A stretch of DNA of 25,909 nucleotides. Source: a virus. Made by a program: the position numbers and the translations under genes. Positions 10,347 to 25,909 of this stretch are shown one piece after another. The stretch lies in IMG/VR virus record IMGVR_UViG_3300047548_000214, positions 1 to 25,909 of that record. One strand, written 5' to 3'. The stretch's first letter is position 1, and every line of letters begins with the position of its first letter. The notes beneath the pieces were generated by a model. It saw only the letters and a program-made list of their open reading frames with translations. It was not told where the DNA came from and searched no databases.

Positions 10347-10480
10347 TTTCCTTGCCCTCTATACTTTTTTGTATAGTTCTTGCTTGTTTTCAACTTACTT
10401 GTCTTGCTCTTTGCGTGCACGCCTTTGCGGCTCTTCTTTGGAGCTTCTACAAATTTACTAATTTCTTTAATCTTTGCCAT
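10343..10480 (-). CDS. 45-residue Lys-rich protein
   Basis: ATG at 10480 opens a 45-codon gene, coupled by a TAATG overlap to the fibre gene before it and by 4 bases to the next gene. The product begins MAKIKEISKFVEAPKKSRKG and ends SKLKTSKNYTKKYRGQGK; nearly a third of residues are lysine or arginine. I recall very similar short proteins (KKxRKGVHxKxKTSxLKxSKNYxKxYRGQG) in many aquatic phage genomes, always without known function. The strong charge suggests nucleic-acid binding, perhaps as a minor virion component. It belongs to the same style as the tiny basic genes at 18593-19671. Confidence 0.75.
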   Translation of the reverse strand: MAKIKEISKFVEAPKKSRKGVHAKSKTSKLKTSKNYTKKYRGQGK

Positions 10481-12174
10481 TATACAATTTTAATCGTTCC
10501 ACCATCATTGTAAAGGTCACCTGCGCTAAGCCCTGTAGGTGATGTAGGTAGTCCCTCAAGTCTCACTCGCCCACTTGTTGAGTGAATAGCGTAGTGTGTT
10601 ACGCCTGTCATTGAGCTAAGTGATGGGTTATAATAGAATCCTCTTACTATTCCTGAATAAGTACCTGTAAAATTATAATTAGGGTTTAATTGGAATAAAT
10701 TTGGCGAAGCTGTCCCTGATGCCCAAGCATAAGCAATTGGTGTAGTTATGGTGTTTATTGTACCACTTGTTATTCCTGAGCCCGCGTTGATAGGCTGAAA
10801 AACTCTGAAATAAGTATTCCCTGCCATGGATAAAGATATAGCGCCTCCACTTCCACCATTATTAAATATAGCGCAGTCAGCTCCACTAAAGCTCAATCCT
10901 GTAAGAGCAGTACCAACATTTAAAACTCCACGTACAATAGCAGTACCATTCACATCAAGTCTAAAGCCTGCGTCTGTGGTGGTGTTGAGTAGTAGGTTGC
11001 CGCTGAATTGAAGTGTCATTTGTTCAACATTGTTGTGAAACCAACGATGTGAATGAGTAGCTCCGTTTAGTGAAGAGTAATAATTAACACCTCCGCCGCT
11101 AGGATTACTTGTTCCAATTCTTAATGTTTGAGCACCGCCATTTACTCTTAAGTCACCAAATGCATTTGCAGTTGTTGAAAGTGTTATGCTTGATGATTGA
11201 GACCTTAAAATAATGTTACTTGTTCCCCCACTTGGAGTAAATCTTATTGTAGCATCATCATTAGCACCCCTAACTTGAAAACATTCAGAATTATTTGTAT
11301 TCTGAACAGTAACATACATATCATCTCTGACAGATAATACATTAACACCTGTGCTTTGTTGAACTAATAATGAATTTGTAGCAGAAGTATTTCCTAAGCC
11401 TCTCACCCTAGAAGTGCCATTGACATCAAAACGAAATCCATTATCTGTGGTGGTACCTATAGCTACGTTTCCACTTGCAAAGATGCTCATTCTATCATTT
11501 GTGCCTAATACACCGCCTGAATAAAATGTTAATCTTTGTCCTGAGCCACCCGAGCCTGTAAAATAATGCATACCACCTTGCCAACCTGCTTGACCATTGT
11601 ATAGGTTTAAGTCAATTGACCCAAGCGCACCATTTCTATATATTTGATGAGATGCTAAAACTCTAGCACTCCCATTTACATCAAACTTAAATCCTGCGTC
11701 AGTTGTTGTGCCTATTGCTACGTTGCCGCTATTGAATATCGTCATCACGTCATTGCCGTTTGTGATGAGTGAAAGCTTTGTTGTATAGAACTCAATGCGG
11801 TTGTTTCCTGTGCTGTACTCACCAATAGCAAAGCCATTTGATAGCCATACATTTGCGGTGTCAACAATAATATTTCCTTCTGCAAATATGTTATTAAGGC
11901 TTGCGTTGCCTAATATATTAAGTGTATTGTTAAGTGAGTCCCATGACAGATTGCCTGACTGCTGTAGGACATTGGCAGCATCTTGGAAAAAGATTCGTCC
12001 TGATGTACCATTTATGACAGGTGTATTGTTGACGCTCAGTTTTGAGGCGTTCATAATTTCCTGTCCTGTTATCTTGCGTGAGCCTGTTCCGCCTACTAAG
12101 GACATTTCAAATAGGTCAGTGGCTGCTAAATCTCTGCCTACTGCCGGTAAATCAACTATCTTAATTCCTGCCAT
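10480..12174 (-). CDS. Tail fibre protein, paralogue 1 of 3
   Basis: The 564-residue fibre opens with an attachment module shared almost identically by two neighbouring genes (MAGIKIVDLPAVGRDLAATD, then SRKITGQEIMNASKL, GRIFFQ, NVLQQS; residues 1-83). The shaft contains repeated beta motifs of the form GNVAIGTTTDAGFKFDVNGS at least three times. It ends in a different tip from its paralogues (LEGLPTSPTGLSAGDLYNDG), an ending I have seen in other phage fibres. Fibres of this kind trimerise and bind the host surface. It is the last of three fibres in the operon, 3 bases after paralogue 2. Confidence 0.85.
   Translation of the reverse strand: MAGIKIVDLPAVGRDLAATDLFEMSLVGGTGSRKITGQEIMNASKLSVNNTPVINGTSGRIFFQDAANVLQQSGNLSWDSLNNTLNILGNASLNNIFAEGNIIVDTANVWLSNGFAIGEYSTGNNRIEFYTTKLSLITNGNDVMTIFNSGNVAIGTTTDAGFKFDVNGSARVLASHQIYRNGALGSIDLNLYNGQAGWQGGMHYFTGSGGSGQRLTFYSGGVLGTNDRMSIFASGNVAIGTTTDNGFRFDVNGTSRVRGLGNTSATNSLLVQQSTGVNVLSVRDDMYVTVQNTNNSECFQVRGANDDATIRFTPSGGTSNIILRSQSSSITLSTTANAFGDLRVNGGAQTLRIGTSNPSGGGVNYYSSLNGATHSHRWFHNNVEQMTLQFSGNLLLNTTTDAGFRLDVNGTAIVRGVLNVGTALTGLSFSGADCAIFNNGGSGGAISLSMAGNTYFRVFQPINAGSGITSGTINTITTPIAYAWASGTASPNLFQLNPNYNFTGTYSGIVRGFYYNPSLSSMTGVTHYAIHSTSGRVRLEGLPTSPTGLSAGDLYNDGGTIKIV
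11926..12174 (-). repeat. Shared fibre adaptor module, copy 1
   Basis: Coding repeat for residues 1-83 of the 564-residue fibre, near-identical in protein sequence to 13660-13905 and 15972-16220. Edges are judged by eye from the protein alignment. Confidence 0.75.
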
Positions 12175-12177
12175 GTC

Positions 12178-13905
12178 TTATACTATAAATGTCCATCCTG
12201 TTGACTTGAAAACCCATAATCCTTCTGTAGCATCAGTACAGTATACAATCAACCCCACAGCCGGGCTTACAATTGCTGTGCGTTGTGCGTTTGTCATTCG
12301 TGGGGGTAGGAAGCCTTTGGTCGTGGATGTTACGTTAAATATTGCGCTTGCCACATCTGTATTTGTATTAATACCAACATTCTGAGAATTACCAAACAAA
12401 ATAAGCCCGTTTGTGTTACTTGCTCTTGTTTTGAAATAAATGTCAGCCCCACCCGTTGATGTATTACTTGCATTAGCTACGAAAGCCAATTTTTGCAATG
12501 CTACTGAACTAAATAAAACAGTGTTTTGCAGGTTTACGTCAATATAATTAGTATCGCAAAAAACGAATTGACCCGTATTTGTACCGCTTTTATTTAATAA
12601 AATACCTGTTAAGGCGTCAGTTGCAGTACTATTGTTTGTTAATGTTAGCCCAAAAGTATAACTTCCATTATTATGAACAATTGAAGTAGCCCCACTCACC
12701 CTCGCACTCCCGTTAACGTCAAGTCTAAAGCCAGCGTCTGTTAGTGTATTTATTAAGACGTTTCCAGTAGAGGCTACTAATCGCATTCGCTCGGTTGATA
12801 AATCAGCGTCAGCATTACCAGAATAAAAACTAATATGCGCATTTGCGCCATTGCTTGTTCTTAAACCAATTCCACCAATACCACCAGATAAATTAGTTTG
12901 TGCAGACCTATAAGTTCCATAGCTAAATGTTGAACCCGTTGCTAAAAATCCACCTTGTCCCGTTCCATCTATATCTCGAAAACTTATGATATTGGCATTT
13001 GTTGGGTTGCTGCTTAATCTAACAATATTATTACCATTTGTAGAAATATGTAATCTCTCTAAAGGAGTAGCCGTACCAATCCCTAACCTTGCATTTGTGT
13101 TGTCCCAAAACAAGTTAGCATTGTTTTGAGTAACTAAACCGCTTGCACCCATAAAAGGTATTGAGCCAGTTGATAAATTGACATTTAGGTTAGTTACCCT
13201 CGCAGTACCATTGACGTCTAACTTGAAGCCTGCATCGGTTGTTGTGTTTATGCCGATGTTGCCGCTTGTATATGCCCACAATTGATTTGAAGCACCTGCT
13301 GACAATAAAATAGGTCTATGCGCTCCCGTGCCACCTTTAAAACTTTCAAAAGTGTATGAAGTACCCGTTGCTCTTACAAGCAATAGTTCGTAGTTAGTTT
13401 GGTTCGCTATAAAGTCAGTACCCCAAATTCCAAATTGGGTTTTTATACCACTGCTATAACCCGTTCCTTTTGGTATGATGTCAAATGATTGACCAACATT
13501 TGTACCCGTTGCAGGATAGAAACTGATGGAAGGTAGGTTGTCCGATGAACCGCTTGTACTTAATTGAGTGCTTCTATTCGTTCCGCTTGTATTTATTAAA
13601 CCTAAATTTCCAACAACATCCAAAGGATTTGCAGGCGAACTCGTCCCAATCCCCAAGCGGTTGTTAGTTGAGTCCCAAAATAAAGACGAACTTTGCTGCA
13701 ACACATTCGCCGTACCTTGGAATAAAAGGCGACCTACCGTTCCACTAACGATAGGAGTAGAGCCAATATTTAACTTTGAGGCGTTCATTATCTCTTGCCC
13801 TGTAATCTTACGACTAGCAGTGCCTCCGATTGACATCTCAAGTAGGTCTGTTGACGCTAAATCCCTACCCAATGCGGGTAGGTCGACAATTTTTATTCCG
13901 GCCAT
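12178..13905 (-). CDS. Tail fibre protein, paralogue 2 of 3
   Basis: The 575-residue fibre carries the shared adaptor with more substitutions than the other two copies (ALGRDLASTDLLEMSIGGTA). Shaft motifs include RLGIGTSSPANPLDVVGN, IGINTTTDAGFKLDVNGTAR and VLINTLTDAGFRLDVNGSAR. The C-terminus is TSTTKGFLPPRMTNAQRTAI followed by a small domain ending STGWTFIV, a tip shared with paralogue 3 and common in Bacteroidota phage and bacterial surface proteins. This copy may be the oldest duplicate or exchanged from another phage. It probably occupies the same baseplate or tail site as its paralogues. Confidence 0.85.
   Translation of the reverse strand: MAGIKIVDLPALGRDLASTDLLEMSIGGTASRKITGQEIMNASKLNIGSTPIVSGTVGRLLFQGTANVLQQSSSLFWDSTNNRLGIGTSSPANPLDVVGNLGLINTSGTNRSTQLSTSGSSDNLPSISFYPATGTNVGQSFDIIPKGTGYSSGIKTQFGIWGTDFIANQTNYELLLVRATGTSYTFESFKGGTGAHRPILLSAGASNQLWAYTSGNIGINTTTDAGFKLDVNGTARVTNLNVNLSTGSIPFMGASGLVTQNNANLFWDNTNARLGIGTATPLERLHISTNGNNIVRLSSNPTNANIISFRDIDGTGQGGFLATGSTFSYGTYRSAQTNLSGGIGGIGLRTSNGANAHISFYSGNADADLSTERMRLVASTGNVLINTLTDAGFRLDVNGSARVSGATSIVHNNGSYTFGLTLTNNSTATDALTGILLNKSGTNTGQFVFCDTNYIDVNLQNTVLFSSVALQKLAFVANASNTSTGGADIYFKTRASNTNGLILFGNSQNVGINTNTDVASAIFNVTSTTKGFLPPRMTNAQRTAIVSPAVGLIVYCTDATEGLWVFKSTGWTFIV
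13660..13905 (-). repeat. Shared fibre adaptor module, copy 2
   Basis: Coding repeat for residues 1-82 of the 575-residue fibre. It is the most diverged of the three copies (for example NIGSTPIVSGTVGRLLFQGT in place of SVNNTPVINGTSGRIFFQ). Confidence 0.75.
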
Positions 13906-13907
13906 AG

Positions 13908-14051
13908 TTATTCTTCTGTTACCTCAGGCTGCTGTTCTTTTGCAATCTCATTCAAGAACTGAACGAGTGGCATTGCATACTTCATAGGCATCTCCTGAAT
14001 GAAAGCTTCTAATTTTGCTAATTGCTCTTGATTTAAAACGATTTGATTCAT
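13908..14051 (-). CDS. 47-residue protein between fibre genes
   Basis: ATG at 14051 opens a 47-codon gene ending at 13908, 2 bases before the next fibre's ATG. The product, MNQIVLNQEQLAKLEAFIQE through PLVQFLNEIAKEQQPEVTEE, is acidic and predicted to form two helices. Tight spacing on the downstream side supports it being real. I do not recognise the family. Its place between fibre genes suggests a fibre chaperone or connector, but this is only positional. Confidence 0.65.
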   Translation of the reverse strand: MNQIVLNQEQLAKLEAFIQEMPMKYAMPLVQFLNEIAKEQQPEVTEE

Positions 14052-14062
14052 GATTATATAGA

Positions 14063-14332
14063 TTAAATGATTACTACTCCAATAGCCTCAGCTACGCACT
14101 CATTGACAAAGTTATTGTCTTGACCCCATGCTGCAAACTGCTCTTCAGTCAAGGTATAGTTACCTTGGCGCAACTGTACACCTTCCTCTGTAAGGAGTTG
14201 GTAGTAAGTCGTGCAGGTAGTTGCAGACGTTTCAAAGTTAAGGACTAATACAGTCAAGCGTGTTGCTGTACCTTCGTTTAATGGGAATACTACCGGCTCG
14301 ATAGCTACTCCTTGTGGTGTTGTGTTTTCCAT
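14063..14332 (-). CDS. 89-residue fibre-associated protein of unknown function
   Basis: The protein has a beta-rich first half (VFPLNEGTATRLTVLVLNFE) and a C-terminal helix with the pattern YTLTEEQFAAWGQDNNFV. A small protein with a similar TxEEYxxWGxDNxYV ending recurs in phages next to fibre or tail genes, in my recollection, without assigned function. Here it sits between fibre paralogues 3 and 2, 16 bases after the former. It may be an accessory tail component or fibre assembly factor. No signal, membrane helix or metal site is visible. Confidence 0.75.
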   Translation of the reverse strand: MENTTPQGVAIEPVVFPLNEGTATRLTVLVLNFETSATTCTTYYQLLTEEGVQLRQGNYTLTEEQFAAWGQDNNFVNECVAEAIGVVII

Positions 14333-14348
14333 TTTTTATTTTTTATGA

Positions 14349-16220
14349 TTAACCAATATATGTCCATCCGGACGATTTATAAATATACTTTCCTTCAGTC
14401 GCGTCAGTCTGATAAATCTCAAGACCGATAGCCGGACTAGAAATTGCGTTACGCTGCGCCTGTGTCATTCTTGGGGGCAGGAATCCTTTGGTTGTGCTTG
14501 TTAACTCAAGGATTGAACTTGCATTTGCTGCGGATTGATTACCGATGCTTAATGCGGTTGCTATATAACTATTATTTCCCGATTGAGCGCCATTCAAGAA
14601 AATATATCCCGTTGCATTTTGATAAAGCGTTAGCGTTCCGTTAGGTCCGTCATTATTTAATTTTGCTCTTAAACTTCCTGCGGCATTTGTTAAAGAAAAA
14701 TTTGAGTATGCGCCTGCTGCATTAAAGTTCCCATTTATATCATACGTTATTGCGTATGTATTTGGAGCTACGAATCTCGCAGTCCCGTTAACGTCAAGTT
14801 TATAGCCTGCGTCTGTGGATGTTCCTATAGATACGTTTCCACTTGAAAATATACGTAGACGCTCATTATATGATGCTCCATCCCAATATTGAAAATAAAA
14901 GTCAGCTGTTGTGGTACTTTTACCAATGTTTACAAGTTGATAAGTTCTATCATTTGTGCCAAATAATGTATTTCCATTTGCCAATCTAACTTGTGTAGTT
15001 CTATTTGTTGCTAATGCGCCATTATTTTGAGCAGTAAATCCTCCGTCATTTCCTGTATTAATGTATAAAGCAGTGGTTAACGCCGATGTTTCAATGTGAA
15101 GTGGTGCAGATGGACTACTCGTACCAATTCCTACATTACCGCCATTAAATATAACGTTTCCTGTAGTCGTCTCAATAGCACGGTGATTAACACCTGTAAT
15201 TGATGTGAGAATTGGATTATAATACAAGCCTCTGACAATGCCTGAGTATGTGCCTGTAGTGTTAATCTGATTTAAAATATTTAATTGATTAAATTCAGCA
15301 TTACCACTAGAAGGTGCAAAATCCATGAATTGATTTGCTGACGCTCCACCAACCATTACCATGTTTAATGTACCTGAAGTTGGTTGATGTCTATGAGCAC
15401 TAATTCTTGCTCCTGAAGAAAGCAAAACAACATTACCTGTAGATGCTCCCGTGACATAAGGGGCAATAGTCATAGGACTATTTGTATTTACCCCTGCATT
15501 TACAGTTGTCAAAAATCCATTTGAAAATGATAAATTAGAACCTCCCGGGTGAGCGGTTATTCTAATTGAACCAAGTCTAAGTGTAGGGCCATTTGCTGTA
15601 TTTGAACCTAAACTAACACTATTTGAGCCTCCCCAAGAGACTGTAAATACATTTTCATTATCAGAACCAATTACTTGAGCAGTGTTTCTAATTATTGCAC
15701 TCCCATTGACATCAAGCTTATAGCCCGCATCGGTTGTTGTGTTGATTAGGACGTTGCCGTTTGAGCTCATCACCATTCTATCCAAACCATTGCTTGTTTG
15801 AAAAGACATTATTCCATTCGTTTTGAAATATAACGAACCTGAAAAACTCGCCATTCCATATGAGCCAAATCCATTCCAAACTTCAGTTGCCATTGTTAAA
15901 GCACCTTGAAATCTTCCTGTTCCATTTACATCTAAAGGAAATGAAGGACTACTCGTATTAATACCTACTCTCCCATTTACTTGGTCAAAAAACAAATTAG
16001 CTGACTGCTGCAACACATTTGTTGAGCCTTGGAAGAATATGCGGCCTGAGGTGCCGTTGATAACAGGGGTGTTGTTAACTGAAAGCTTGGATGCGTTCAT
16101 TATCTCTTGGCCTGTAATCTTGCGACTACCTGTGCCACCTGCTAATGACATCTCGAACAAGTCGGTTGCCGCAAGGTCTCTCCCTACCGCAGGTAGGTCA
16201 ACTATCTTAATTCCCGCCAT
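14349..16220 (-). CDS. Tail fibre protein, paralogue 3 of 3
   Basis: The longest fibre has 623 residues and is the first fibre in transcription order. The adaptor (1-83) is nearly identical to paralogue 1 (AVGRDLAATDLFEMSLAGGT). The shaft holds at least four motifs of the families VLINTTTDAGYKLDVNGSA and NVGIGTSSPSAPLHIE. The tip SSILELTSTTKGFLPPRMTQ to SSGWTYIG resembles that of paralogue 2. It also shares the segment TGTYSGIVRGLYYNPILTSI with paralogue 1, so the three genes look like mosaics built from common parts. A host-recognition role is inferred from fibre architecture. Confidence 0.85.
   Translation of the reverse strand: MAGIKIVDLPAVGRDLAATDLFEMSLAGGTGSRKITGQEIMNASKLSVNNTPVINGTSGRIFFQGSTNVLQQSANLFFDQVNGRVGINTSSPSFPLDVNGTGRFQGALTMATEVWNGFGSYGMASFSGSLYFKTNGIMSFQTSNGLDRMVMSSNGNVLINTTTDAGYKLDVNGSAIIRNTAQVIGSDNENVFTVSWGGSNSVSLGSNTANGPTLRLGSIRITAHPGGSNLSFSNGFLTTVNAGVNTNSPMTIAPYVTGASTGNVVLLSSGARISAHRHQPTSGTLNMVMVGGASANQFMDFAPSSGNAEFNQLNILNQINTTGTYSGIVRGLYYNPILTSITGVNHRAIETTTGNVIFNGGNVGIGTSSPSAPLHIETSALTTALYINTGNDGGFTAQNNGALATNRTTQVRLANGNTLFGTNDRTYQLVNIGKSTTTADFYFQYWDGASYNERLRIFSSGNVSIGTSTDAGYKLDVNGTARFVAPNTYAITYDINGNFNAAGAYSNFSLTNAAGSLRAKLNNDGPNGTLTLYQNATGYIFLNGAQSGNNSYIATALSIGNQSAANASSILELTSTTKGFLPPRMTQAQRNAISSPAIGLEIYQTDATEGKYIYKSSGWTYIG
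15972..16220 (-). repeat. Shared fibre adaptor module, copy 3
   Basis: Coding repeat for residues 1-83 of the 623-residue fibre, almost identical in protein to copy 1 at 11926-12174. Confidence 0.75.
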
Positions 16221-19716: not shown

Positions 19717-20145
19717 ATGAAAAATTATATGAGGTATTGGCGTTTAATACGCTACTACTATCTGCAAAAGTACAATATCACCGAGTCAGAGCTAGATTTA
19801 TTGCTCTACGTCTACTCAGAAAAGTACTTTACAATGACAGACTGCCAAGTTTTTATGCAGACATTCTCTTGGAGTAGAACGCGCTTCTCAATCCTCAAGA
19901 GTAAAGGCTTTATAGACATACACAGTCATGCACACGCCAATAGCGCCTCTATTTGGAAGATTACCTTTAAAGGAAAAAAGCTTGTCGCATCTTTGTACGA
20001 CAAGCTAGAGGGTGGTAAGATATCTGAAAACTATCAGTTCAATCGTCTATTTTTAAAGGAGGCAGGCTACGCCCACAAGACCTACAAGAATGCCATCAGA
20101 CAGATGAACGAAGAGATTAGAACGGGTAAGTTTAAGGATGATTAA
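19717..20145 (+). CDS. Winged-helix-like candidate transcription regulator (only plus-strand gene)
   Basis: The 142-residue protein opens MKNYMRYWRLIRYYYLQKYN, then has a helix-turn-helix-like region at about 21-65 (ITESELDLLLYVYSEKYFTM, FSWSRTRFSILKSKGFI) and a wing-like beta pair (ASIWKITFKGKKLVASLYDK). This resembles MarR-type winged helices. I recall similar proteins with an MRYWRxIRY opening in Bacteroidota phages. It is the only coding gene on the plus strand, divergent from the basic-protein operon and overlapping the groES stop tail-to-tail by 4 bases. Control of the flanking operons is inferred from position and fold. Confidence 0.8.
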   Translation: MKNYMRYWRLIRYYYLQKYNITESELDLLLYVYSEKYFTMTDCQVFMQTFSWSRTRFSILKSKGFIDIHSHAHANSASIWKITFKGKKLVASLYDKLEGGKISENYQFNRLFLKEAGYAHKTYKNAIRQMNEEIRTGKFKDD

Positions 20146-20402
20146 AGTACAATGACAACGTCTCGCTCTGCAATAATGGTGACGTCCTCGTCATTTATCA
20201 TCATCGTGTAACTGTTTGCCTTGTCGTAGTAGATTTCATCACCCGCTTGAATGGTGCTCACGTCAGTACCCGGCATCACAACGACACCTCTTTTGTACCT
20301 AAAGCCCTTAACGTCGTCAGCCGAGAGAATGAAGCCCGCATCTGAGCGGACTTCTTCCTCGATATTTTTAATTACGATGTTTTTACCGATTACCTTTTTC
20401 AT
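20142..20402 (-). CDS. groES: Phage GroES co-chaperonin
   Basis: The 86-residue protein is the length of a compact GroES. It has the opening strand KNIVIKNIEEEVRSDAGFIL where the mobile loop would lie, VVVMPGTDVSTIQAGDEIYY in the middle and the ending EDVTIIAERDVVIVL, matching the GroES pattern of xVGDxVxY...I...DIxAV. It would cap the GroEL ring during folding. It follows groEL in a TAATG overlap, the reverse of the bacterial groES-groEL order. The loop sequence differs from bacterial GroES, so it probably pairs with the phage GroEL encoded beside it. Confidence 0.88.
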   Translation of the reverse strand: MKKVIGKNIVIKNIEEEVRSDAGFILSADDVKGFRYKRGVVVMPGTDVSTIQAGDEIYYDKANSYTMMINDEDVTIIAERDVVIVL

Positions 20403-22012
20403 TATTTAACCTCGAACGAGCGAGCCTCCGTAATAATAGCGTTAGTACTTAGGATTGTCACAGCTACACTCACCGCGTTTTGCAAAGCTGAGCGAGTTAC
20501 CTTTAGCGGGTCGATGACACCAAGTTTGATTAGGTCACCCTGTTCTCCTGTCTTGATGTTTACACCCTTACCCTCATTTTTAAGGACAGGGTAGTCAGAC
20601 AAAGCAAGTCCTGCGTTGGTGTATATCTGCTCGAGCGGCGCCCAAAGTGCCTCTTGAATGATGCGAGCGGCAACAGAGGCCTCAATACTCTCCCCAACCA
20701 ACGGAAGGTTCTCCAACACATTGATATCGTAAAGAGCTTTTCCACCTCCCGGCAAGATTCCCTCCTCCAAAGCAGAGCGAACAGCGCAAACAGCGTCGTC
20801 AATACGGTCGTAGAGCTCCTTTTGCTCTAGGTCTGTGTTACCACCAACGTGGATGACACCAATTCCACCTGAGAGCGACGCAATTCGCTCCAAGATGAAG
20901 TCCTTGTCGTTCTTCTTCTGCGCTTGGTCGTGTGCCTTCCACAGCTGCTCTATGCGCTCGGTTACTGCAACACTTGTCTCATCCTCCGCATCCTTAACAA
21001 TGATGGTCTCGTCTTTTTTAACGATAACCTTTGATGCGTGACCTAGGTCAGAGAACTGAATGAGGCTTAGGTCGTCACCCGTCTTCTCAGAGTAGTAGGT
21101 TGCACCTACACTCAGTGCAATGTCTTGCATGAGCTCGTGCTGTTTGTAGCCAAAGCTAGGTGGTTGAATGGCACATACGTTTAAGGCACCCTTGGCTACG
21201 TTAGCAGACAGCGTGTTAATGAACTGATTTGTGCACGGGGCAATGATTAATAGCTTCTTTTGGGTGTTTGCAATTGGTGCTAATACCTCTTTGATTTGAA
21301 GGATGTTCGATATCTCCGCATCACACACCAAGATGTATATGTCGTCAGCCACGTACTCATCACGCTCGTGGTTGTTGATAAAGTATGGGCTTAGGTACCC
21401 GCGCTGTACGCGAAGTCCGTCGGTAGCCGTAGAGTATGTCTCTGAGGTTTGGGAGTGCTCAACGGTAACGATACCATTTTTACCCACCGCGTTGTACGTC
21501 TCAGCGATTACCTTACCTGTAGATTGGTCGTTGTTGGCAGAGATGGTAGCCACGTCCTCTAACATAGCAGGTGTTACCTTCTTTGCTTTCTTTTTTAGTA
21601 GCTCAACAACTTGGTTTGAGATGTCTGTCATGTTGCGAAGCACCTCGATGTTGTTGTGCTCAGGCTTAATATGCTTTAGACCTGCCTCGATTAAGGCCTC
21701 AGTAAGCACGATGGCGGTAGTTGTTCCGTCACCTGCGCTTGTAGCGGTGCGCTCAGCAGCCTCCTTCATGATTTTTACTGCTAAATTCTCAACCGGGTCA
21801 AACAAGTCAACTGCTTTGGCCACAGTGACACCATCTTTGGTGACCGTAATGCCGTGCGTGTGAAATGGTGACTCGATTAGTACTGTCTTTCCTCGTGGGC
21901 CGAGGGTACTTTTGACGGCCTTGGCCATCTTGTTGACTCCTGAGATGAGCTTTTTACGGCCGTCTTCCTCAAAGAGTAGTTCTTTTGGTGTAAATGATTG
22001 GTTATGTGTCAT
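20402..22012 (-). CDS. groEL: Phage GroEL chaperonin
   Basis: The 536-residue protein is a full-length group I chaperonin subunit that forms ATP-driven folding rings. Visible hallmarks are STLGPRGKTVLIE (36-47), KDGVTVAKAVDLFDPVENLA (59-78), the nucleotide motif GDGTTT at 94-99 with D95, the apical domain, ERIASLSGGIGVIHVGG (375-391), D406 in the equivalent of the E. coli D398 position (RIDDAVCAVR), and EEGILPGGGKALY. The usual GGM-repeat C-terminal tail is absent; it ends RSFEVK. It has its own promoter element after a terminator, and is co-transcribed with groES. It is expected to help fold phage proteins, and is diverged from typical host GroEL. Confidence 0.95.
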   Translation of the reverse strand: MTHNQSFTPKELLFEEDGRKKLISGVNKMAKAVKSTLGPRGKTVLIESPFHTHGITVTKDGVTVAKAVDLFDPVENLAVKIMKEAAERTATSAGDGTTTAIVLTEALIEAGLKHIKPEHNNIEVLRNMTDISNQVVELLKKKAKKVTPAMLEDVATISANNDQSTGKVIAETYNAVGKNGIVTVEHSQTSETYSTATDGLRVQRGYLSPYFINNHERDEYVADDIYILVCDAEISNILQIKEVLAPIANTQKKLLIIAPCTNQFINTLSANVAKGALNVCAIQPPSFGYKQHELMQDIALSVGATYYSEKTGDDLSLIQFSDLGHASKVIVKKDETIIVKDAEDETSVAVTERIEQLWKAHDQAQKKNDKDFILERIASLSGGIGVIHVGGNTDLEQKELYDRIDDAVCAVRSALEEGILPGGGKALYDINVLENLPLVGESIEASVAARIIQEALWAPLEQIYTNAGLALSDYPVLKNEGKGVNIKTGEQGDLIKLGVIDPLKVTRSALQNAVSVAVTILSTNAIITEARSFEVK

Positions 22013-24573: not shown

Positions 24574-24679
24574 TGTATTACATTTTAGTTTAACTTATGT
24601 GGCAATTTCTACCACTTATCTTAACTTGTCTTGTAAGGTACAAACACCCATAGTTTTGACCCTTATATTACCACTTAGG

Positions 24680-24810
24680 CACGGAGGCAGGATTTGAACC
24701 TGCATGGAGCTTATCCCTCGTATCTACTTCTGCTCAATAGGACCTACGGCCGATAACCTATGACTTTTGCATTTTCAAGTACTAGCGTCTACCAATTCCG
24801 CCACTCCGTG
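24680..24810 (-). tRNA. Expanded tRNA-like element (Leu-type D arm, 131 nt)
   Basis: On the minus strand, acceptor arms CACGGAG and CTCCGTG pair perfectly over 7 bp. The D arm TGGCGGAATTGGTAGACGC is that of a bacterial leucine tRNA. The T arm GCAGG-TTCAAAT-CCTGC is canonical. Between D and T arms there are about 81 nt instead of about 33. The only local hairpin in the anticodon position is ACTT/AAGT with a 10-nt loop (GAAAATGCAA), so no anticodon can be assigned. The discriminator would be C and no CCA is encoded. It is either a tRNA-derived structural RNA, a degenerate phage tRNA, or a tRNA carrying an unusual insertion. Confidence 0.6.
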
Positions 24811-24903: not shown

Positions 24904-25179
24904 TCACTCCTCCTCACTAGGCTCTGCGTCCACCCAATGCATGAATGCGGTGCTGACATTTTGTACTTGGTCGTAAAAGTGCAACGAACCCTCCACGTCT
25001 TTGACCATAGAGAATAAATTATTTAAGTGACGCGTCGTGTGCTCAATGAAGTCATTGCCCGACTTTTTGACCATCCTGTTGTAAACCCTTGGGGATTGCT
25101 CTCTGATGTCCTCCATGTAGTCCATCAATACCGGCAGAACGCCTAAGAGAGCCTGTAGCTTTTTCTCGTTCTCAATCAT
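24904..25179 (-). CDS. 91-residue helical protein, first gene after the repeat region
   Basis: The protein begins MIENEKKLQALLGVLPVLMD and is predicted helical throughout, with a basic middle (SPRVYNRMVKKSGNDFIEHT) and an acidic end (WVDAEPSEEE). It is preceded by a strong-looking TTG-N20-TAAATTTG promoter and followed by the structured RNA region. Being the first gene beside the TGTCGA repeats it could be an early or regulatory protein, but no helix-turn-helix is evident. I do not recognise the family. Confidence 0.7.
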   Translation of the reverse strand: MIENEKKLQALLGVLPVLMDYMEDIREQSPRVYNRMVKKSGNDFIEHTTRHLNNLFSMVKDVEGSLHFYDQVQNVSTAFMHWVDAEPSEEE

Positions 25180-25200
25180 AGTATCTGTTTGTTATGGGAC

Positions 25201-25231
25201 AAATTTAAAAAGAAAAAATCAACTGCGCAAG
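25201..25231 (-). promoter_or_regulatory. Bacteroidota-type promoter with both boxes
   Basis: Minus-strand TTG (25231-25229), 20-base spacer, TAAATTTG (25208-25201), 22 bases before the ATG at 25179. One TGTCGA repeat begins 6 bases upstream of the -33 box. Confidence 0.75.
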
Positions 25232-25236
25232 CTCCT

Positions 25237-25434
25237 GTCGAATTTTTATCAAATGTCGTTTTAAGGTTTCTCTATATATATATAGGAAATATATTATTAT
25301 TATATTTTTTTTCCCACTAGAAAGTAAAGTAAAAATCGACAGAATCGACAGAAGTATTGATAATCAATAAGTTAAGTATAAAAAATCGTCGTAAAATCGA
25401 CATGATTTATATAGTAAAATGTCGATAATCGACA
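25237..25434. repeat. TGTCGA/TCGACA repeat cluster, candidate origin or operator
   Basis: In this AT-rich gap the motif TGTCGA or its complement occurs at 25237-25242, 25336-25341, 25345-25350 and 25397-25402, with a near copy at 25255-25260. There is also a perfect 7-1-7 palindrome TGTCGATAATCGACA at 25420-25434. A second 7-1-7 palindrome of the same architecture, TATTGATAATCAATA, is at 25355-25369. A TATATA tract (25272-25283) and a long A/T run (25287-25312) lie between. Clustered repeats plus an AT-rich unwinding stretch fit a replication origin with iterons; proximity to a promoter also fits a repressor operator. Confidence 0.7.
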
Positions 25435-25476
25435 GGAATGGCCTTTTTTCAGAAATTATTTTAAAATCATAAACAT

Positions 25477-25505
25477 AAAAAAAGGGGCTTTTTAGAAAAC
25501 CCCTT
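25477..25505 (-). terminator. Rho-independent terminator of the rightmost gene
   Basis: Minus-strand AAGGGG, A/T loop, CCCCTT followed by a T run, 18 bases after the stop at 25523. Confidence 0.85.
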
Positions 25506-25522
25506 CCACAGAAACTAAAAAC

Positions 25523-25720
25523 TTAGTCCTCCAAACCAAGCATTCTCTCGCGCATTGAAGCACGTACATCTGCCTCAACCATCATCTCAATCTTCTGCTC
25601 ACGCTTGCGATTCTTTTTGGCTTCACACAATAACTGAATGCCCGTCATTCCATCAGGACGATTGTTAATCAAACGACCGTTGCGAATCTCTAGTCCGCTC
25701 TTAATACTCATATTTTTCAT
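25523..25720 (-). CDS. 65-residue charged protein, monocistronic
   Basis: The frame is open further upstream (to 25783), but the TAtcTTTG promoter element lies inside that extension, so ATG 25720 is chosen; ATG 25711 is an alternative. The product, MKNMSIKSGLEIRNGRLINN then a helical basic-acidic stretch (LLCEAKKNRKREQKIEMMVE), ends ERMLGLED. It has its own promoter and terminator, so it is regulated apart from the main operon. No family recognised. Confidence 0.65.
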   Translation of the reverse strand: MKNMSIKSGLEIRNGRLINNRPDGMTGIQLLCEAKKNRKREQKIEMMVEADVRASMRERMLGLED

Positions 25721-25736
25721 AATAGATAGTTTTATG

Positions 25737-25744
25737 CAAAGATA
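25737..25744 (-). promoter_or_regulatory. Bacteroidota-type -7 element for the 65-residue gene
   Basis: Minus-strand TATCTTTG, 16 bases before the ATG at 25720. No TTG at the -33 distance. Confidence 0.55.
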
Positions 25745-25783
25745 CAAAATGGTATCAGATATGCGGAGTGGTTGGATACCCAC

Positions 25784-25909
25784 CCCATTTTACGATGCGA
25801 CCCCCCAATGCGAAACCGACCAAAAGCTTGCTAGGGGGGTGCTGAATGCGTCGACGCGGCCCAACTTTTTGGCGTTTTCCTAGGGCCTAGCGCGCACACT
25901 AGTGTAGAC
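25784..25909. other. Gene-free, GC-rich, palindrome-rich right end
   Basis: No convincing gene is seen. Base composition shifts from AT-rich to GC-rich. It holds an inverted repeat ACCCCCC (25800-25806)/GGGGGGT (25834-25840), AAGCTT (25824), a 10-bp palindrome GCGTCGACGC (25848-25857), CTAGGgCCTAG (25880-25890) and ACACTAGTGT (25896-25905). It could be a genome-end or intergenic protein-binding region. Confidence 0.5.

Follow-up and report, generated by a model that had tools for sequence, protein, structure and literature searches.

What do the short repeats packed into a non-coding gap of a viral contig do? The gap lies in IMG/VR record IMGVR_UViG_3300047548_000214, a 25.9-kb contig that we analysed over its full 25,909 nt and refer to as the window. 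A preliminary description of this locus had noted repeated TGTCGA motifs and two 7-1-7 palindromes at 25237-25434, and had proposed either iterons of a replication origin or a multi-site operator at an early promoter. The motifs and palindromes are indeed there. The non-coding gap at 25180-25522 (343 nt) holds six exact TGTCGA sites, at 25236-25241 (+), 25336-25341 (-), 25345-25350 (-), 25397-25402 (-), 25420-25425 (+) and 25429-25434 (-), and two perfect 7-1-7 palindromes, TGTCGAT-A-ATCGACA (25420-25434) and TATTGAT-A-ATCAATA (25355-25369). The previously given start of the cluster was off by one base, the first site beginning at 25236. Dinucleotide shuffles of the 343-nt gap contained a mean of 0.10 TGTCGA sites, with none of 5,000 reaching six, and words with at least three G/C were never repeated more than four times in 2,000 shuffles. 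Six of the window's 11 TGTCGA sites fall within 1.3% of its length. Because the motif is not over-represented across the window as a whole (11 observed, 8.3 expected), the excess is local.

The cluster forms part of an ordered module, which we call module A. Upstream of it lies a small gene (25523-25720, -) that starts with MKNM at 25720 and encodes 62 aa counted from an inner ATG at 25711. This gene is closed by an intrinsic terminator at 25480-25507 (-) with a 12-pair stem and a U tail (-14.2 kcal/mol, z -2.6). Next come the two-repeat palindrome TGTCGATAATCGACA at 25420-25434, which the three closest relatives have in the same position, and a single minus-strand repeat at 25397-25402 (TCGACA on the plus strand). 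The core at 25355-25374 consists of the palindrome TATTGATAATCAATA (25355-25369) overlapping AATCAATAAGTTA (25362-25374), which matches the IHF consensus WATCAANNNNTTR. It is followed by the tandem repeat pair TGTCGATTCTGTCGA (25336-25350, -; period 9 nt) and by an AT-rich stretch with TATATATATATA (25262-25315), a candidate DNA-unwinding element. Beyond lie a degenerate repeat, TGTCGT (25253-25258, +), inverted relative to the minus-strand pair, and an inverted TGTCGA (25236-25241, +) 5 nt upstream of the -33 box of a promoter. We called this promoter at 25200-25230 (-), as TTG (25230-25228), N20 and TAAATTTG (25207-25200), using the Bacteroidetes-type consensus. The first gene after the module (24904-25179, -) encodes 91 aa and has no assigned function; the GroEL gene (20402-22012, -) lies further along the downstream operon and in many relatives is the first gene after module A.

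Nearly all genes of the window lie on the minus strand and read leftward, in a series that starts at 25179 and extends to terminase and portal. The terminase has relatives in phages of Flavobacterium and Cellulophaga and in the uncultured complete circular genome MW202828 (81%), and the family that carries the module comprises ~60-70-kb phages of Bacteroidetes-type hosts. The window contains module A only and has neither a DnaA-type nor a primase gene; what we say of those genes and of a second module rests on relatives, mostly metagenomic contigs, the closest of which share 90-99% identity in neighbouring proteins. Several other features of the window deserve record. Its only clear plus-strand gene (19717-20145, +) encodes a 142-aa phrog_17028 protein with no assigned function, and the gene at the corresponding place in MW202828 is annotated 'repressor protein'. 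At 24679-24810 (-), a 132-nt Rfam tRNA match (31.7 bits), without an ARAGORN call, has Leu-like ends separated by a long additional internal segment and is 94% identical, insert included, in a close relative; an intron, an odd variable arm or a decayed gene are candidate explanations. Three long ORFs at 10480-16220 (-; 564, 575 and 623 aa) have near-identical starts (MAGIKIVDLPA.GRDLA.TDL.EMS) and share repeated TDAGF.LDVNGTA stretches, apparently forming a paralogous tail-fibre-like gene family.

To read the module in other genomes, we gathered relatives via neighbouring proteins, located the syntenic site with relatives of the small gene product and read the sequence past the small gene, obtaining 39 nonredundant diverged loci. 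The non-coding module stays the same in loci whose next gene differs. Along late transcription, the terminator is followed by at least one TGTCGAT repeat, the core TAACTwATTGATtATyAAT (whose complement fits the IHF consensus), a repeat pair, mostly of 9-nt period, and, after ~20 nt, an AT-rich run ending TATATATAGGGA, with an inverted repeat beyond it in many members. TGTCGA or its complement TCGACA occurs in 31 of the 39 loci, at 87 sites (shuffles, 4.1 loci and 4.5 sites). The IHF-like core occurs in 32 (shuffles, 2.3), in one orientation; its strand is constant and it is always flanked by repeats. In some genomes, though not in all, few places are richer in AT than the AT-rich run. A palindrome scan of viral contigs placed two close relatives at the syntenic site among the matches listed; most contigs were not known relatives. 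Together, the shuffles and this conservation rule out chance as the source of the cluster. The module thus contains several short direct repeats, non-coding, conserved and far above chance, as an iteron origin does, and the AT-rich region and putative architectural-protein site beside them fit the same pattern.

A second cluster of the same repeat lies ~10 kb from module A in complete and near-complete relatives. This module B sits between a gene whose product, as read from sequence, has an SSB-like acidic tail and the start of a primase-helicase gene with BT4734-like_N and PriCT domains and a GGTGKG P-loop. It shares the part order and genome orientation of module A, but its downstream gene points the opposite way. 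The two modules can be aligned across core, repeat pair and AT-rich run. In nine genomes, TGTCGA density in the modules is 15-134 times that of the rest of the genome; in the closest complete relative (G001, 66,338 nt), the two modules make up 0.8% of the genome and hold 11 of its 21 sites, so the motif is far from equally frequent elsewhere. We then measured distances in 25 further genomes, treating contigs as circles, and found two same-strand tandem pairs of like type in 15, a median of 10.0 kb apart (range 8.9-14.3 kb); a reversed-pattern control gave 15 hits in all versus 52. One genome, G007, has a repeat cluster at A and none upstream of its primase, a case that we counted against the origin reading.

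In some lineages the repeat has drifted to TGTTAAT or TGTGACA. G094 carries a TGTTAAT-type repeat, TGTTAATAATGTTAA, in both modules, and G010 carries TGTTGA in both; in module A of L228, TGTGACAAC repeats surround an unchanged core. The same change in two places 10 kb apart implies one common trans-acting reader, a factor that, judging from these sequences, would recognize both modules.

We consider it probable that the TGTCGA cluster represents one copy, module A, of a duplicated (A + B) phage replication origin worked by a DnaA-domain-IV protein, the primase-helicase or both. oriC and iteron origins are known to combine a repeat array, an IHF site and an AT-rich run (PMC4980987), a likeness that we counted towards the origin reading. 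The half of the preliminary description that proposed origin iterons is well supported, and neither of the outcomes it had named as refuting, equal motif frequency elsewhere in the genome or lack of repeat conservation in relatives, was observed. Sequence comparison shows a conserved module, two matching same-strand copies per genome, repeat covariation, an IHF-type site with an adjoining AT-rich stretch, nearby replication genes, DnaA-domain-IV proteins and a separate host-type promoter. GC skew, which had been proposed as a check, is consistent with an origin, its detrended minimum lying 0.7-1.9 kb from module A in eight of nine genomes, but this signal is confounded by the coding strand switching there too. 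In the predicted mechanism, a phage initiator would bind the TGTCGAT repeats flanking the IHF-like site, where a host IHF/HU-type protein would bend the DNA; the AT-rich stretch next to the core would open, the BT4734-like primase-helicase that the phage encodes right beside module B would be loaded, and DNA replication would start at the modules. We assume a host bending protein because a search for phage-encoded IHF/HU gave no match above cut-off.

The best candidate initiator is a DnaA domain-IV-only protein of the relatives, the alternative being a primase-helicase acting like phage P4 alpha. Such DnaA-type proteins (PF08299; some single matches below the family cut-off) are encoded by 13 of 17 records in one set and by all 25 further relatives in another, which places this DNA-binding domain in relatives, not within the 25.9-kb window. 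Relatives have one to three of them, usually a short form (~100 aa) and a long one (~180 aa) that bears a helical tail. When the closest relative's long form was modelled with AlphaFold (mean pLDDT 86), the model's best matches were the DnaA domain IV-DNA complexes 3pvp and 1j1v. The D-H signature of DnaA is mostly kept, and the residue equal to E. coli T435 varies. No domain-IV match was obtained in elemoA (Elemovirus) or G009, and the repeat cluster was not found in elemoA, in the part of elemoE read or in G009, though G009 has a BT4734-like primase; the joint absence of protein and repeats in elemoA and G009 was counted for the origin reading. A close-relative search of bacterial genomes returned no DnaA-type protein; for the primase, bacterial genomes gave two contigs in MAGs, probably phage. 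Keyword searches of the open-access literature found nothing on phage DnaA domain-IV proteins or on such an origin pair.

Phages outside the family offer a different view of the binder. In the unrelated Muminviruses, a repeat array accompanies a VirE-type primase, not the DnaA-type protein. Flavobacterium Muminvirus snusmum6-1 (NC_048841, position 18791) has such an array beside its primase and also encodes a DnaA domain-IV protein; unlike the family studied here, it has the repeat AGGTAACC at one site. Its relative tooticki keeps the DnaA-type protein and has no such array. Since the array tracks the primase, the binder we propose may be wrong, and by analogy the comparison favours the primase as repeat binder. 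Either the DnaA domain-IV protein or the primase-helicase may thus bind the repeats. The snusmum6-1 array itself (L385, NC_048841.1, 18791), eight AGGTAACC repeats directly past the VirE-type primase, is a likely origin of another phage genus. For the family at hand we also put forward, tentatively and as less likely than not, a fuller scheme: two same-strand oriC-like origins ~10 kb apart, whose diverged boxes are marked by stand-alone DnaA domain-IV proteins, usually two per genome, with the primase-helicase replacing the helicase-loading part of DnaA and boxes and reader co-evolving by lineage.

The best-surviving alternative is that the modules are operators of one phage regulator, which would switch or autoregulate the GroEL/virion operon from module A and the primase operon from module B, with no replication start. 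We regard this as rather unlikely, although each module fronts an operon, one at the boundary between early and late genes and the other ahead of the primase, and two copies in such places are also what a shared regulator would give. The B repeats reach to 3 nt from the primase ATG, one window repeat is similarly close (5 nt) to the -33 box, and helix-turn-helix proteins of the domain-IV type could be repressors. Against this, the repeat-IHF-AT-rich polarity is equal in A and B though their genes point opposite ways, which is not expected of a plain promoter, and an ordinary operator needs neither a conserved IHF-type core nor an AT-rich run. The position of the host-type promoter bears on the same point. 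TAnnTTTG occurs downstream of module A in 35 of the 39 loci (shuffles, 14.4), and 16 loci have both boxes of the motif (shuffles, 2.4); this promoter lies outside the module, downstream of the repeat block and at least 100 nt from most repeats, and is mostly absent from module B. A polarity independent of gene direction, with the promoter outside A, therefore disfavours a plain operator and favours a duplicated origin. The early-promoter part of the preliminary description fares less well for related reasons: the promoter is downstream of the repeats, the genes that follow it in the window include the late-type GroEL, terminase and portal, and in relatives the early genes diverge beyond the small gene. 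The origin and operator readings are not mutually exclusive, since many initiators are also repressors of their own genes. We rejected TATATATAGGGA as a T7-like promoter, because in B the element points against the primase gene; a search for a single-subunit RNA polymerase, run without a working control, found none.

We also asked how closely the repeats resemble DnaA boxes. The gap contains no exact TTATCCACA, one site at one mismatch and two at two mismatches, and hence no cluster of such boxes as in oriC. The TGTCGA-type repeat resembles a DnaA box at two mismatches, as do 1.7% of shuffled 13-mers, and at one mismatch in TTATCGACA; the likeness is modest. As exact boxes are absent, we do not class the module as a DnaA-box origin, though it would be oriC-like in its working. 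For comparison with a host oriC, we inspected 30 Bacteroidia dnaA loci and found no DnaA-box cluster beside dnaA. A decoy that titrates host DnaA and so stops host replication would explain why sites resembling DnaA boxes surround the IHF-like core; in E. coli datA, an IHF site is likewise flanked by boxes (PMC5835720). We judge this role very improbable, since the changes to TGTTAAT or TGTGACA lead away from any DnaA box and, where both modules were read, occur jointly in the two.

Least credible of all is a packaging or recombination site (cos or pac with IHF, or attP). Lambda cosB and attP likewise combine repeats with an IHF site, and the ends of several contigs lie a few hundred bases before the small gene, on its upstream side. 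However, one packaging site would not be expected in two copies 10 kb apart, several relatives give circular assemblies (end overlaps of 54-127 nt), and lineage-specific upstream repeats near the contig ends are a simpler cause of assembly breaks. We rejected attP because a search confined to tyrosine integrases gave no PF00589 match in eight relatives, with all 14 controls positive. The region where many contigs end, the window included, is non-coding (25740-25909, upstream of the small gene); its counterparts are L223 5300-5990, MW202828 42978-43050 and G003 60479, and in several relatives it carries the lineage-specific short repeats ACGCGAC, ACACTAA, CGGGATC or AGGCAGG.

If the modules are origins, their nearest likenesses are E. 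coli oriC and iteron plasmids with an IHF site (pSC101, R6K and P1), which share initiator repeats, an IHF-type site among them and an adjacent AT-rich run (PMC4980987). The module would probably function as an iteron origin does, or as an oriC in miniature. It differs from both in being phage-borne, in two same-strand copies 10 kb apart, and from oriC in having the repeat TGTCGAT, not TTATCCACA, and DnaA-type proteins without the AAA+ part. Satellite phage P4 has two separated sites with the same short repeats, ori and crr, and the alpha primase-helicase. The family studied here likewise has two same-repeat sites in one genome and a phage primase-helicase gene. Unlike P4, both of its copies carry an AT-rich run and an IHF-like core, and its primase has a BT4734-like/PriCT architecture; we draw the P4 pairing as an analogy and do not claim membership of that class.

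To our knowledge, the replication origins of abundant environmental Bacteroidetes phages are largely unmapped. The duplicated module is a recognizable landmark in dozens of their genomes and suggests a target site for orphan 'DnaA helix-turn-helix' genes. Its natural repeat covariation provides data on how DNA is read by DnaA domain IV or by a primase-helicase. If the origin reading is true, copy-number peaks 10 kb apart would be predicted in these phages.
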